Below are positions 1,409-45,208 of a stretch of 47,923 nucleotides of DNA, in pieces. A program made the translations under genes and the position numbers. Below the pieces are notes generated by a model, which was given only the letters and a program-made list of their open reading frames with translations, searched no databases and was not told the DNA's origin. This stretch comes from a virus, in IMG/VR virus record IMGVR_UViG_3300037147_000102, positions 1-47,923 of that record; one strand, written 5' to 3'. Each line of letters starts with the position of its first letter. Position 1 is the stretch's first letter.

Positions 1409-1439
1409 TTGACAGATCAACCAACACGTGCTATAAATA
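1409..1439 (+). promoter_or_regulatory. Composite early/late promoter of the tmRNA
   Basis: TTGACA (1409-1414), exactly 17 bases, then TATAAA (1432-1437), a near-consensus sigma-70 promoter. The same -10 reads TATAAATA (1432-1439), identical to the T4 late promoter consensus. Transcription should start near 1444, just where the acceptor piece of the tmRNA begins. Confidence 0.8.
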
Positions 1440-1442
1440 GAG

Positions 1443-1755
1443 TCGTAAGTAGTTAGTCGAAGTGATCGATAACGCATTTCGGACGGGGCTATCGTATGCC
1501 CCCGGCTCCACCAAATATTCTCCGACTTTTAGGCATCGGAAACCATATGGGGCCGAGCGTAAGCTGGATTCGACGGGATGAGAAGTTGCGAGAGCGGGGC
1601 TTACGGTGGTCCTTACCACCTAAATCCAGAGGAACATTAAACGCTACGACTGAAAAGCCGATGAGCATGGCCGCAGCCGCCTAAACGGTTGCTCCACGGA
1701 GCTTGATCCACTCTGTTAAACAACGGATCGACAGGGGCCGGGAAACCGGCCTTTT
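1443..1755 (+). ncRNA. ssrA: Circularly permuted (two-piece) tmRNA
   Basis: The 3' acceptor half precedes the 5' half. The acceptor piece (about 1443-1513) contains ATTTCGGAC, a GGGGC/GCCCC T-stem with an 8-base loop, and ends CGGCTCC-A-CCA at 1513. The coding piece begins GGGGCCG at 1549, which pairs with CGGCTCC to give a 7-bp acceptor stem with the G3-U70 wobble used for alanylation. It continues with the hallmark CTGGATTCGACGGG. CGTAAG (1444-1449) pairs with CTTACG (1600-1605) as helix P2. GGTGG...CCACC (1605-1620) forms a hairpin before the tag frame. The tag frame from GCT 1643 reads ATTEKPMSMAAAA then TAA at 1682. A 35-base insert (1514-1548) with a TCCGA/TCGGA stem would be excised. 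Permuted tmRNAs are known from some bacterial lineages; whether this copy works in trans-translation is inferred. Confidence 0.88.
1643..1684 (+). other. tmRNA tag reading frame
   Basis: Inside the coding piece, from the likely resume codon GCT (Ala): A-T-T-E-K-P-M-S-M-A-A-A-A-stop. Host tags usually end in a hydrophobic-Ala-Ala degron such as LAA. Here the end is MAAAA, still Ala-rich and small, which may be read less well by ClpXP. Confidence 0.75.
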
Positions 1756-1757
1756 GT
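1736..1757 (+). terminator. Rho-independent terminator of the tmRNA
   Basis: GGCCGG-GAAA-CCGGCC (1736-1751) followed by TTTTGTT. A GC-rich stem with a stable GNRA tetraloop and a T-run right after the last tmRNA helix. Confidence 0.85.
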
Positions 1758-9354: not shown

Positions 9355-9684
9355 ATGGCAAGAACAGCAAGTCTCAAACCGAAACGTGGTTTCCTAGACG
9401 GGTACAAGACTTACGATACGTCGAATGGGTTTGGTGATCCCGGCCAGTGGCGGCGAGAGTTTAATGATCGCATCGGCCTTGATGCCGCCCGTGAAGCGGT
9501 AGGTTCCAAGTCTCCCCGGTCGATTCTGGGCGTGAGTTTGTCCGCCCTATGGGAAGAAATCAGAGCCGCCTATCGCAAGCTGATGTTCAAATATCACCCC
9601 GATCAAAATCCTGGCATCGATACCACGATGTTCCGTAAGGTTCAGGGTGCCTACGAAATTTTGGAAGCAGAGTTTAAACGATGA
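9355..9684 (+). CDS. J-domain protein, 109 aa
   Basis: The C-terminal half is a J domain: SILGVSLSALWEEIRAAYRK ... FKYHPDQNPG ... VQGAYEILE, with the invariant HPD between helices II and III. The first ~50 residues (GFLDGYKTYDTSNGFGDPGQ) are unrelated. J domains stimulate DnaK/Hsp70 ATPase; phage copies can redirect the host chaperone. Its stop overlaps the macro-domain gene by four bases, so the two are made together. Leaderless start. Confidence 0.85.
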   Translation: MARTASLKPKRGFLDGYKTYDTSNGFGDPGQWRREFNDRIGLDAAREAVGSKSPRSILGVSLSALWEEIRAAYRKLMFKYHPDQNPGIDTTMFRKVQGAYEILEAEFKR

Positions 9685-10292
9685 CACAAAAAGTTTTCAA
9701 GACATCCACTGGCAAAGAGAAAGTCATTGACCTTCAGTTCGGGGATATCGCCAAGATTCCAGCCGAAGCAATAATTACGGCGATCAATCCGGGCGGCGAT
9801 TGGTACGGTGGAATTGATAGTGTGATTTATGGCCACTGCGGCAAACAATTTCACGACCAAGCCGAAGCCGCTATGCCGCTTCAAGACAAACAAGTTGTTG
9901 TCGCCAAAAAGAAGACGTCACATGACGCCAAGTTCACCGATGTCATCTTCGTGGTGGATGCTCTTAAAGTCTTCTTGAATCAAATCATCCAAGCGGCCCT
10001 CAGTGGCGCTAACACTTACGGCTACAAGCATGTGAGCCTTCCGGCGATCCGAACCGGCGTCATGCTAGGTGTGGTCGAGCCGAATGCAGAACAGGCCGTC
10101 ATCCAATTGCTTCGTGGCATCGATCAGCATTTCGTGGATTTCCCGGATAGCACGGTCGAACACATCACGTTCGTCATCTGGGAGCCAACGATTCTGCTGG
10201 TATCGGAGACCTTCAGTAATGAAAACAACCCCACACCCCAAAGTATCGGCGGGCGGCTTAAACAGAAGTTGCTGAACGGAGTCACTAATTGA
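9681..10292 (+). CDS. Macro-domain protein, 203 aa
   Basis: Contains the macro-domain core: LQFGDIAKIPAEAIITAINP then GGDWYGGIDSVIYGHCG, i.e. GDI, the Asn-containing strand and the GG-I/V-D loop that contacts ADP-ribose, then LPAIRTGV corresponding to the second binding loop. Macro domains bind or hydrolyse ADP-ribose derivatives; a phage copy could reverse ADP-ribosylation or sequester NAD-derived defence signals (inference). Residues ~175-203 are a tail. ATGA overlap with the J-domain gene. Confidence 0.75.
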   Translation: MTQKVFKTSTGKEKVIDLQFGDIAKIPAEAIITAINPGGDWYGGIDSVIYGHCGKQFHDQAEAAMPLQDKQVVVAKKKTSHDAKFTDVIFVVDALKVFLNQIIQAALSGANTYGYKHVSLPAIRTGVMLGVVEPNAEQAVIQLLRGIDQHFVDFPDSTVEHITFVIWEPTILLVSETFSNENNPTPQSIGGRLKQKLLNGVTN

Positions 10293-27299: not shown

Positions 27300-28088
27300 A
27301 TGACCAAACAATTTCATTTTTACAAAATAACCAATACAATAAACGGAAAATCTTATGTGGGGTACACCGGGCAATATCACGCTACTGCCCGATGGAAACA
27401 ACATTTGGCCGCAGCAAAACGGGGAGAATCACAAGTTCTCTATGACGCCATAAGAAAACACGACGCCAAAAATTTTATTTTTGATGTTTTGAGTACGTTG
27501 GAATTAACACCAGAACAAGCAATCCAAAAAGAAACGGCTTACATTTACGAGCACAAAACGCTTGTTGGAGAAAATGGGTACAATATTAAAGCCGTGGATG
27601 GAGTGTATTCCGAATCCGTTAAGCAAAGTAAATCAGAACGAATGAAGGCTTATTACGCCAGTGGTGGCACACACCCTATGAAAGGGAAGGTGCATTCAAC
27701 AGAAGCAATTCAAAAAATGAGTACAAGTCATCTTCAAATGAGTGAAGACACAAAAGAAAAAATTGGTGAAGCGTCCAAGAAGATGTGGCAAGATCCGGCC
27801 AGTCGTCAAAAAATACTGACTCATGTTCAAAATCCGTCTCCTACGACACGTCAGAAAATGTCCAAAGCCAAACGAGGGAAGCCCTCTTGGAATAAAGGCA
27901 AGCCCAATACCTGGACTGCACTTCATCGTAGCCGTATCTATGTTGTGACTACACCGGATGGAAAAGAAATTACAGTCACTAATTTAAGAGCTTTCGCTGT
28001 GAAAAATGGATTGAGTCAAGGCACTCTTCACATGACGGCCACCGGCGCACGGGCCGCACACAAAGGGTATCGTGCTCGCTTTCTTTAA
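27300..28088 (+). CDS. GIY-YIG homing endonuclease, 262 aa
   Basis: N-terminal GIY-YIG nuclease: FHFYKITNTINGKSYVGYTG (residues ~5-24), with the Arg of TARWKQHL and the Glu of KETAYIYEHK as catalytic residues. The middle ~100-200 has NUMOD3-like GGTHPMKGKVHS and SEDTKEKIGEASKKMW repeats; the C-terminus (EITVTNLRAFAVKNGLSQGT) is a NUMOD1-type DNA-binding helix-turn-helix. Inserted after the gp48-like gene as free-standing Seg-type enzymes are in T4. AT-rich compared with its neighbours. Confidence 0.9.
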   Translation: MTKQFHFYKITNTINGKSYVGYTGQYHATARWKQHLAAAKRGESQVLYDAIRKHDAKNFIFDVLSTLELTPEQAIQKETAYIYEHKTLVGENGYNIKAVDGVYSESVKQSKSERMKAYYASGGTHPMKGKVHSTEAIQKMSTSHLQMSEDTKEKIGEASKKMWQDPASRQKILTHVQNPSPTTRQKMSKAKRGKPSWNKGKPNTWTALHRSRIYVVTTPDGKEITVTNLRAFAVKNGLSQGTLHMTATGARAAHKGYRARFL

Positions 28089-29295: not shown

Positions 29296-29373
29296 TGGAG
29301 CACCCGGTCAGAATCGAACTGACTAGTCATCGGCTTTGCAGGCCGTGGCCTCAACCATTTTGGCTTCAGGTGC
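29296..29373 (-). tRNA. tRNA-Cys (anticodon GCA), copy 1
   Basis: Acceptor GCACCTG/CGGGTGC, T-arm GTCAG-TTCGATT-CTGAC, anticodon loop C-T-GCA-A-A, discriminator U73 and encoded CCA. U73 is the cysteine identity base. One mismatch at the base of the anticodon stem. Confidence 0.8.
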
Positions 29374-31352: not shown

Positions 31353-31427
31353 TGGAGCCGGGTGGAGGAATCGAACCTCCGATTAAAGGATTTGCAATCC
31401 TCTACCTTTCCACTTGGCGAACCCGGC
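31353..31427 (-). tRNA. tRNA-Cys (anticodon GCA), copy 2
   Basis: Acceptor GCCGGGT/ACCCGGC, T-arm GGAGG-TTCGATT-CCTCC, anticodon loop T-T-GCA-A-A, U73 and encoded CCA. A different sequence from copy 1, so not a recent duplication. Confidence 0.88.
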
Positions 31428-31710: not shown

Positions 31711-31717
31711 TATTTAG
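31711..31717 (-). promoter_or_regulatory. Late-like box CTAAATA of the 91-aa gene
   Basis: Within the palindrome GCCTAAATAGGC, seven bases before ATG 31703; it overlaps the 3' end of the HAD gene. Confidence 0.5.
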
Positions 31718-32253
31718 GCTTGACACTCACGTTTCACGATATTCAGCATGCGTTTGTACGACGGTTCCGGCGCTTTGGCGATGGCTTGCAAATCCATCAT
31801 AGTTTGCACCGGATTCTCAAACAAGATGCCGATTCCGCCCGCTTCCTGCCATCGTTCGATGTTGATGCGATGGTCATCCACCAGAATGTTGCCGGGGCCA
31901 ACGTACTTCACCTTGTCACGTTTGCGGTTCACGATGGTGACATTGACCGGGGCGATGAACGGAACTTCTCGTGTACACCAGTCTTGTTTTTGCTTAGGAG
32001 ACTGCACAATACGCCGTGTCGCCGCCGAGAGTATGCCCACGGTGTAAGGGGCATACATGGCATATGCTACCATCGTTCTAGCACCAGGAATCCAAGGAAG
32101 ATTGAGGAAGAAATCTGGGTGGGGGTTTAGAAGACTCCATTTGTGGTCCTTCTCTTCGTCGGTCAGAATGGCGTCACGCCCACAGGTCACGCCAGTTAGT
32201 GTTCGGTAGGCGGCATCAAAGTCAACTAAAACGCCATCTAGATCAAAATACAT
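31714..32253 (-). CDS. HAD-superfamily phosphatase (5' nucleotidase-like), 179 aa
   Basis: Starts MYFDLDGVLVDFDAAYRTLT, the HAD motif I (DxDGV-L) with the nucleophile Asp and general acid. Later GILSAAT is motif II and NRKRDKVKYVGPGNILVDDH then NIERWQEAGGIGILF contain motifs III/IV with Lys and the Asp pair. Matches 5'(3')-deoxyribonucleotidase-like HADs often carried by phages for nucleotide salvage. An in-frame ATG upstream (32340) adds a hydrophobic stretch and is not preferred. Confidence 0.78.
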   Translation of the reverse strand: MYFDLDGVLVDFDAAYRTLTGVTCGRDAILTDEEKDHKWSLLNPHPDFFLNLPWIPGARTMVAYAMYAPYTVGILSAATRRIVQSPKQKQDWCTREVPFIAPVNVTIVNRKRDKVKYVGPGNILVDDHRINIERWQEAGGIGILFENPVQTMMDLQAIAKAPEPSYKRMLNIVKRECQA

Positions 32254-32329
32254 CTTTGCCAGTTGAATAAACAAAATTAGTATCCACCCTTGATTTGCAT
32301 CTGCATCTATTATACCATCATCTATAGTT

Positions 32330-32608
32330 ATGGAAAGCAAAAATCAGCGACCCGAAACCGGCCCGATGGAGTTCCCCGGCGATTGGCCCGGTATTTTCAT
32401 TAGGGGCGACAATGCGTTCATGTTCACCATGGCAATTGATGTGGTGCTCAATGACATGGATGCCATGATCGATGAACGTGGAGAACGATCCACACGTCGT
32501 TTTGACATCATCCAAATGAACATTCTAAGGGGTTTAGGCAAACTCCTGGCCGGATGTGACACTCGCACCAATCCGACCACCCAGAAGGTCCAACTAATCG
32601 AAGAATGA
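32330..32608 (+). CDS. Hypothetical protein, 92 aa
   Basis: MESKNQRPETGPMEFPGDWP, then FMFTMAIDVVLNDMDAMIDE and an Arg-rich helix (RGERSTRRFDIIQMNILRGL). It begins two bases after a TATAGT, so the promoter register is unclear. Helical, soluble. Not recognised. Confidence 0.55.
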   Translation: MESKNQRPETGPMEFPGDWPGIFIRGDNAFMFTMAIDVVLNDMDAMIDERGERSTRRFDIIQMNILRGLGKLLAGCDTRTNPTTQKVQLIEE

Positions 32609-44135: not shown

Positions 44136-44143
44136 TATTTAGC
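44136..44143 (-). promoter_or_regulatory. Late-like box GCTAAATA of the fibre-like gene
   Basis: Minus-strand GCTAAATACTAATCAC then ATG 44127; eight bases from TAAATA. Confidence 0.6.
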
Positions 44144-44630
44144 TTCTGTAATCAATGATCTCGATTCCTTTTCCACCCATCCCATTACAGTCATGACAAA
44201 GAGGTTGGATGTTAGTGATCCAATTTGAGCCGCCCTTAGTTAAGGGTATTACATGATCCTGTTCCAAAACTCTGTCCAGTTCAGATTCGTGTCGCTTGCA
44301 TCGGAGACAGATGTTTCCAAATTGTTCTTTGAGCGCCAGCCATTCTTCAGTTGTATGATTACCTTCGGCTCCCCGACGTTTGGATCTAGTCTTTTGCTGA
44401 TTTACCGATAACTTTATTTTTCCTTTTGGTGATTGCCAATATGCTTTATGATAGGCTTTACATTCGGGTGTTTGATTGCGGACTTTTTCACTAGCTTTGT
44501 ATTCTTTGCACACACAATGGCCGGAAATCTGTCGTTCAGTCTTACCACACAGTTTACATGGTCTGCCGTGATATCGCCGCCCGCCATTTTCTTTGGCTTC
44601 CTTTCTTGATTGGTAAATTATTTCAGACAA
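44139..44630 (-). CDS. HNH endonuclease, 163 aa
   Basis: Zinc knuckles CKLCGKTERQISGHCVCKEY near the start and CLRCKRHESELDRVLEQDHV then IPLTKGGSNWITNIQPLCHD-CN at the end: a full HNH motif (E-x-D-H, N, H-D-C-N) with C-x2-C pairs. Upstream of the fibre-like gene. Likely a free-standing homing nuclease; a TAAATA box overlaps its stop. Confidence 0.88.
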   Translation of the reverse strand: MSEIIYQSRKEAKENGGRRYHGRPCKLCGKTERQISGHCVCKEYKASEKVRNQTPECKAYHKAYWQSPKGKIKLSVNQQKTRSKRRGAEGNHTTEEWLALKEQFGNICLRCKRHESELDRVLEQDHVIPLTKGGSNWITNIQPLCHDCNGMGGKGIEIIDYRS

Positions 44631-44683: not shown

Positions 44684-45208
44684 ATGCAACCACAGCCTTG
44701 GCCGAATTCGGGTCCGATTCAACAAATCTATCAAGCGGCATATCAACAGGCTCTCTTGCATCGCCCGAAATTCATCAAGTTGCTGGCAAAAGTCGTCGAA
44801 TCGGATGATTTTGAGTTGAAACCCGATATCAAACGGTTCGCTTCATTTGAAAACAAGGTCAAGCGTGGAAAAGAACCCAATGCCATCCATGACATGCTCC
44901 GGGCGGCGATCCTCACCAATGACCCGGACGAAAATGACGACGTAGCTCATCGGATCGATCAATTTTGCAATGTGATCGAACAGGAATTTAAAACCCATAA
45001 CGAATCGGGTTACCGTGGTGCATACCATTTCAAAATTTTGGTCGGCGACATGATTTGCGAAATTCAGACGATGTCAAAAAATTTATGGGCGTTTAAGGAA
45101 GCCGCCCATCCCTGTTATGATCGACAAAAACATGGCACCGAAGATGTCTCTATGTTGGGATTTACAAAATGGCTTTACGATACGGCGCAAAAGTCAGAGC
45201 GGCGATAA
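44684..45208 (+). CDS. RelA/SpoT-like nucleotidyltransferase-domain protein, 174 aa
   Basis: The middle resembles the (p)ppGpp synthetase domain: KRFASFENKVKRGKEPNAIH then DMLRAAIL (D-x-x-R), HNESGYRGAYHFKI (the G-Y-R-x-x-H box) and MICEIQTMSKNLWAFKEAAH followed by CYD (E-I-Q ... H-x-x-Y). The domain is complete but has no regulatory parts, as in small alarmone synthetases and their toxin relatives. AGGAG precedes ATG 44684. Whether it makes (p)ppGpp, modifies tRNA or is a toxin cannot be told from sequence. Confidence 0.65.
   Translation: MQPQPWPNSGPIQQIYQAAYQQALLHRPKFIKLLAKVVESDDFELKPDIKRFASFENKVKRGKEPNAIHDMLRAAILTNDPDENDDVAHRIDQFCNVIEQEFKTHNESGYRGAYHFKILVGDMICEIQTMSKNLWAFKEAAHPCYDRQKHGTEDVSMLGFTKWLYDTAQKSERR

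Follow-up and report, generated by a model that had tools for sequence, protein, structure and literature searches.

Here, we propose that the tmRNA gene of a T4-like phage fragment is intact and very probably working, a two-piece molecule that would use the SmpB of its host and that belongs to a class of phage tmRNAs with an alternative elbow. The class is recognised by an 8-nt T-loop, UAUCGUA(U/G/A) (hereafter UAUCGUAD), which normally comes with a 3-nt linker on the D side; in the window (by which we mean the whole stretch of DNA analysed, an entire IMG/VR virus record of 47,923 bases) the linker is 10 nt long and capable of forming a GNRA-capped mini-hairpin. The T-loop and the D-linker hairpin are the novel parts of the window gene and were absent from its first-pass annotation. 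The two-piece state on a phage genome is, taken alone, not new, given that two-piece tmRNA genes in phages are already described in PMC9004378. There, Buchholz et al. 2022 report 133 unique phage tmRNA structures from ARAGORN, 53 of them two-piece, and Nawrocki and colleagues, using ARAGORN and BLASTN, arrive at 79 unique phage tmRNAs (PMC11915505).

The permuted tmRNA gene of the window

Judging from its gene content, the source record is a fragment of a T4-like phage, with T4-like genes for the tail tube, baseplate hub, tail tube cap, DNA end protector, head closure, single-strand binding protein and helicase loader. The Rfam model of permuted tmRNA (RF04321, tmRNA_permuted) matches positions 1452-1684 of the plus strand over its full length (model positions 1-213) with 59.6 bits, against a cut-off of 47 and with an E value of 3.7e-9 for the window. 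The first-pass annotation had described a phage-encoded circularly permuted tmRNA and had named the Rfam covariance models as a way of checking it; the RF04321 match and the gene anatomy bear this out, whereas the beta-type model RF01850 stays under its cut-off of 84 (39.2 bits over 1395-1760), a model with which a fellow class member, L151, scores 105.1. ARAGORN reports four tRNAs and no tmRNA in the window. The sequence thus supports the identity of the gene as a permuted tmRNA. BLAST of the window tmRNA against plasmids gave no match, and a search for relatives of the locus through the baseplate hub protein found none.

Gene anatomy, stems and tag frame can, like the covariance-model match, be demonstrated in the sequence itself. 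The acceptor piece (1444..1513, plus strand, as are all features of the gene; 5' end uncertain), delimited from the sequence, the RF04321 alignment and folding, contains GGAC (1481-1484), a T-stem (GGGGC/GCCCC, 1485-1489/1498-1502) and the acceptor 3' strand CGGCTCC (1503-1509), followed by ACCA (1510-1513). The T-arm as a whole reads GGGGC-TATCGTAT-GCCCC (1485-1502), and its 8-nt loop, UAUCGUAU (1490..1497), stands in place of UUCRANN and is without the UUCRA motif, a seven-base UUCRANN loop being common but not demanded by RF04321. The coding piece (1549..1734; 3' end approximate), drawn on the same basis, opens with the acceptor 5' strand GGGGCCG (1549-1555), which pairs with 1503-1509 at 7/7 positions, G3-U70 included. 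It runs on through the D-side linker AGCGTAAGCT (1556..1565, between the acceptor strand and the D core), the D-loop core GGATTCGAC (1566-1574, from the sequence and the RF04321 alignment) and a hairpin (1605-1620) to the tag frame ATTEKPMSMAAAA with its stop TAA (1643..1684), the resume codon GCT at 1643 being placed from the RF04321 alignment; CTGGATTCGACGGG begins at 1564. The coordinates first given for the acceptor half (1503-1513) and for the start of the coding half (1549) are correct, as are the 7-bp acceptor stem with G3-U70 between the two halves and the complete tag frame. The stretch 1514..1548, which separates the CCA end from the acceptor 5' strand, is an intervening sequence predicted to be removed, by analogy with known two-piece tmRNAs.

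The window gene shares with the RF04321 permuted tmRNA its gene order, an acceptor stem with G3-U70, the D-loop core GGNUUCGAC (present at 1566-1574) and a tag frame. It differs from RF04321 and RF01850 in having UAUCGUAU and not UUCGAUU, the RF04321 consensus T-loop, in its 10-nt hairpin linker and in its RF01850 score below cut-off.

An inner P2 helix between CATTTC (1475-1480) and GGGATG (1575-1580) is plausible from the sequence, the RF04321 alignment and folding. The outer P2 helix is ambiguous in folding. Pairing of CGTAAG (1444-1449) with CTTACG (1600-1605), by which P2 was first thought to re-form across the two pieces, is possible but not unique, as near-equal alternatives exist: when inner P2 and the tRNA-like domain are both held fixed, that helix gives -51.2 kcal/mol, against -51.4 for the unforced optimum (almost the same helix) and -50.8 for the Rfam register GUUAG/CUUAC, all three within 0.6 kcal/mol. 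CTTACG is also able to pair with a second CGTAAGC, in the linker (1558-1564), for -55.0 kcal/mol with inner P2 unforced.

By eye, a promoter-like site (1409..1437, plus strand) precedes the gene, with TTGACA at 1409-1414, 17 nt and TATAAA at 1432-1437; a promoter scan requiring T at the last -10 position listed no site at 1409..1437. From the -10-like box at 1432-1437 the transcript would start at about 1445, so part of the P2 strand 1444-1449 might be outside it. The octamer TATAAATA (1432-1439) matches a T4 late-type box as well and has a single copy in the window; we rejected it as strong evidence of a T4 late promoter, since 35 of 100 shuffles contain one. Downstream, a terminator-like hairpin with a T-run (1735..1757, plus strand) folds at -14.3 kcal/mol, with a z of -3.0 for 1735-1760; the hairpin at 1735-1757 is absent from the list given by a terminator scan of the window.

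A class of phage tmRNAs with a UAUCGUAD T-loop

Scanning IMG/VR with GGACN5TATCGTATN8CTCCAC returned 46 contigs. With the last three loop bases free and CCA required, 53 contigs were returned, 44 of them already known, and the 9 added contigs comprised 7 new T-arms (last base G or A) and 2 without T-arm pairing; with the first three loop bases free, 44 contigs were returned, all within the 46 and all with TAT (44/44). Besides the window, 53 IMG/VR contigs share the loop UAUCGUA(U/G/A). The class set therefore consists of 57 T-arms, from the IMG/VR contigs, the window and three crAss-type records (L002-L004); in a fourth crAss record, cr113_1, the T-arm and D-domain are both present.

All 57 T-arms have 5/5 Watson-Crick pairs in the T-stem, spread over 11 stem sequences, and the D-domain could be located for 54 of them, the other 3 sitting close to contig ends. 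Every one of these 54 has an acceptor stem with 7/7 pairs (7 different sequences) and G3-U70; 31 are one-piece, as in RF00023, and 23, the window among them, are two-piece. The loop is fixed at 7/8 bases across diverged phages, the eighth being U, G or A, and the window has the class loop on a perfect 5-bp stem. A chance T-loop motif was considered and rejected: the stems covary, the D partner is found in 54/57, and a D-domain arose by chance in 0/1840 trials with shuffled flanks of the 46 loci.

Among named phages, BLAST of the 33-nt T-arms returned only the crAss records and weak matches, with an Alcaligenes match having an ordinary T-loop, and BLAST of four class tmRNAs returned crAss again, a match in Stenotrophomonas phage Marzo with an ordinary T-loop, and other weak matches, including H42. 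In the crAss-like Buchavirus records NC_055890, NC_055892 and NC_055896, the T-arm GGACGGGGCTATCGTATGCCCC equals that of the window over 22 nt. Their two-piece tmRNAs, unannotated in those records, differ from that of the window in having a 3-nt linker, a TTTGAC D-loop and a long intervening sequence. The lineage marker gp23 (PF07068) was found in 2 of 50 class records. Literature searches for unusual tmRNA T-loops and for the loop letters, with most subscription journals and preprints outside their coverage, gave nothing on a UAUCGUAD class; within that coverage, no earlier account seems to exist of the elbow class, of the way its loop goes with the linker, of its being passed over by ARAGORN or of the hairpin linker of the window.

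The D-side linker

Of the 54 located class members, 53 have a linker of exactly 3 nt, the window with its 10 nt being the sole exception, and the T-loop search patterns imposed no linker length. No second 10-nt linker was present in the first scan (111 contigs; linkers up to about 22 nt allowed). In the 210 two-piece records parsed, the linker that goes with a 7-nt T-loop is 3 to 6 nt long, in most cases 4 or 5; with a UAUCGUAD loop it is always 3 nt, the window excepted. Seven-nt loops thus also occur with 3-nt linkers, which are not confined to the class. A paired test of loop type against linker had 4 supported pairs only. Across the class the 3-nt linker is constant save in the window, an outlier that shares the class loop and in which a hairpin replaces the linker. 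In folding, AGCGTAAGCT can form three Watson-Crick pairs capped by a GUAA tetraloop, of the GNRA type; the chance of such a hairpin-capable 10-mer is 0.0005 at the base composition of the window, and 23 occur on its plus strand.

Detection by ARAGORN and Rfam

ARAGORN called 0/50 class tmRNAs (49 loci and the window) and 27/32 other two-piece phage tmRNAs, the 32 having been hand-picked from the 111 contigs of the first scan. Melnitz and 52 others likewise have a two-piece tmRNA on a phage genome (PMC9004378); this published set was found via ARAGORN, whereas no class member is called by it. Rfam tmRNA cut-offs are reached in 42 of the 50 class records (26 standard, 16 permuted), and the eight below them are five contigs with the gene cut or partly matched and three crAss records. 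Phage tmRNA counts based on ARAGORN are hence too low and biased, and surveys that rely on it overlook the class.

Several tmRNA backbones

The sequences suggest that class members are spread over several tmRNA backbones. When the rest of the two-piece molecules was compared (24 class, 192 other), several class bodies matched tmRNAs that have ordinary T-loops at least as well as they matched fellow members. The body of L144 has 79.9% identity to L239 over 154 nt, its best class match being 76.4% over 106, and other such pairs are L119 with L091 and L142 with L230. The body of the window tmRNA had no match among the fetched two-piece tmRNAs at E 1e-3.

A quick tree took in 149 distinct bodies with a minimum length of 150 nt, of which 14 belong to the class, with about 170 nt per row; it omits shorter and identical rows, crAss rows among them, and does not fix the place of the window. 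Loop type has to change 9 times on this tree; when the labels are shuffled (50 times) the figure is 11 to 14. A constraint that places 13 class members, without the window, in one clade comes at a cost of 100 log units, so that the tree rejects a single clade for the two-piece members (AU p 0.0047). Repeated switching and exchange of T-arms by recombination are both compatible with this pattern.

How the window tmRNA might work

A single precursor would be transcribed and then cut by host tRNA-processing enzymes, yielding an acceptor piece with its 3' end at 1513 and a coding piece that begins at 1549; the two would reunite through the acceptor stem and P2. Charged by the host alanyl-tRNA synthetase through G3-U70, the molecule would reach stalled ribosomes via host SmpB and EF-Tu, and ATTEKPMSMAAAA would be appended to the unfinished protein. 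This course of transcription, processing, charging and tagging we infer from the features of the gene. An SmpB gene was sought in the 50 class records and found in 0/50, many records being fragments; a phage-encoded SmpB as co-evolved partner is thus unsupported, and host SmpB probably serves.

What might the altered elbow change? Few features of tRNA-like RNAs are as conserved as the contact between T-loop and D-loop, which is reportedly required for SmpB-tmRNA binding. GGAC and GGATTCGAC, the parts expected to contact SmpB, are kept in the window; in E. coli numbering we take G19 to be the G of GAC and A334 to be the A of GGAC, both kept. The contacts of E. coli SmpB include A15, U17, A334 and G19 (PMC8363625). 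As these expected parts are kept, it is most likely the T-loop/D-loop contact that the change rebuilds, with the SmpB contact left untouched. That a nearly invariant substitute loop turns up in different phage tmRNAs suggests a further elbow solution.

Among 32 distinct class genes, 30 yielded a tag and two, L118 and L123, did not; the pattern used demanded Ala-Ala in front of the stop, itself preceded by Ala or a hydrophobic residue, and so favours such ends. Leu, Val, Met or Ile precedes Ala-Ala in 28, and the ends are AAA in the window (MAAAA) and in L134 (ELAAA); the crAss relatives have similar but different tags. The earlier idea that the MAAAA end could redirect proteolysis finds little support: the last two Ala are kept, L134 also ends in AAA, and in E. 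coli changing the antepenultimate Leu increases the ClpXP KM only modestly, according to PMC7652416. The end is only mildly unusual and was rejected as the novel part of the gene.

Alternative explanations

Could the window gene be a dead or decaying copy, its odd T-loop and long linker being damage? Since the 10-nt linker is unique to the window among located members, this copy may be decayed or mis-assembled, and its RF04321 score is the lowest among the 16 above cut-off. We nevertheless consider decay improbable, given a loop that is constant in 7/8 bases across diverged phages and an acceptor stem, T-stem, D core and tag that are all intact in the window. We give equally little credence to a decoy, in which a tmRNA with an altered elbow, such as the class has, would bind SmpB or ribosomes without finishing trans-translation and so block host ribosome rescue. 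There is a precedent in PMC4131195 and PMC11915505, where a minimal tRNA-like domain like that of phage DS6A acts as an inhibitor of tmRNA, possibly because it titrates SmpB; a pure decoy would, however, have no need of the Ala-Ala tag ends seen in 30 distinct members or of the G3-U70 present in all 54.

The T-loop class, known here from viral records, might also be a bacterial feature inherited from particular hosts and not a phage invention, which we regard as unlikely, though less so than decay or a decoy. Some members have TTTGAC D-loops, a type known from Bacteroidota. Against such an origin, the RF04321 consensus T-loop is UUCGAUU, the class is carried by several backbones, hardly expected from one host lineage, and T-arms of the ordinary kind number 117 at the same loci, where UAUCGUAD occurs in no arm outside tmRNA.

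Of the class as a whole, we tentatively suggest, at somewhat less than even chances, that UAUCGUAD with its short linker is a phage-selected elbow, switched as a unit on unrelated one- and two-piece backbones, that keeps SmpB binding and gives up the canonical T-loop for freedom from TrmA/TruB or from loop-targeting elements (group I introns, integrases, nucleases); the window, with its GNRA mini-hairpin, would be a third state. The minimal substrate of TrmA, and also of TruB, is described in PMC7912444 as a 5-bp stem with a seven-membered loop, so an 8-nt loop may escape both. All group I introns found in tmRNA sit in the T-loop, according to PMC11915505, which makes escape from invaders another possible reason for the altered loop.

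Other observations

Inside the intervening sequence of the two-piece tmRNA gene in crAss-like Buchavirus genomes lies an ORF that the records annotate as an endonuclease (L002:1978-2559 in NC_055890; L270:1478-2059 in NC_055896; L003, about 1870-2400, in MT835588). Its last codons are antisense to the T-arm, and a Pfam search of this ORF found no domain; NC_055892 (L004) has a shorter intervening sequence, which retains about 150 nt of the same stretch. The one-piece class members L120, L121, L139, L150, L163 and similar ones have long open acidic stretches before the stop (e.g. AEYIFNNADEFLGGIEEESYALAA) that exceed the usual tag length. A second odd T-loop, GGCGGUA/GGCAGUA, occurs in the two-piece phage tmRNAs L015, L016, L026, L048 and others, with tags such as ASLQNTNANDNFAPSGFALAA, and ARAGORN missed 3/3 of those tested (L015, L016, L026). 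The two-piece phage tmRNAs of L010, L067 and L093 have the T-loop AUCGUUC with a 6-nt linker, and ARAGORN finds L010, the sole one tested.

Elsewhere in the window, two tRNA-Thr genes (CGT, GGT) with ordinary T-loops lie just downstream of the tmRNA (2076-2150 and 2159-2232), and ARAGORN reports two tRNA-Cys (GCA) genes on the minus strand, at 31353-31427 and 29296-29373, only the first of which meets the Rfam tRNA cut-off. Short repeats (ggcgatacagg, ggttcaacagg) at the start of the record (1-120) resemble a repetitive, collagen-like gene end. Protein matches include a macro domain protein (9681-10292, plus strand; PF01661, 22.9 bits, barely above cut-off), a deoxynucleotidase-like protein (31714-32340, minus strand; PF06941, NT5C) and a weak RelA/SpoT-like match (44684-45208, plus strand; 20.2 bits, under the cut-off of 27). 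Genes for a GIY-YIG/NUMOD3 endonuclease (27300-28088, plus strand) and an HNH endonuclease (44139-44630, minus strand) are likely mobile.
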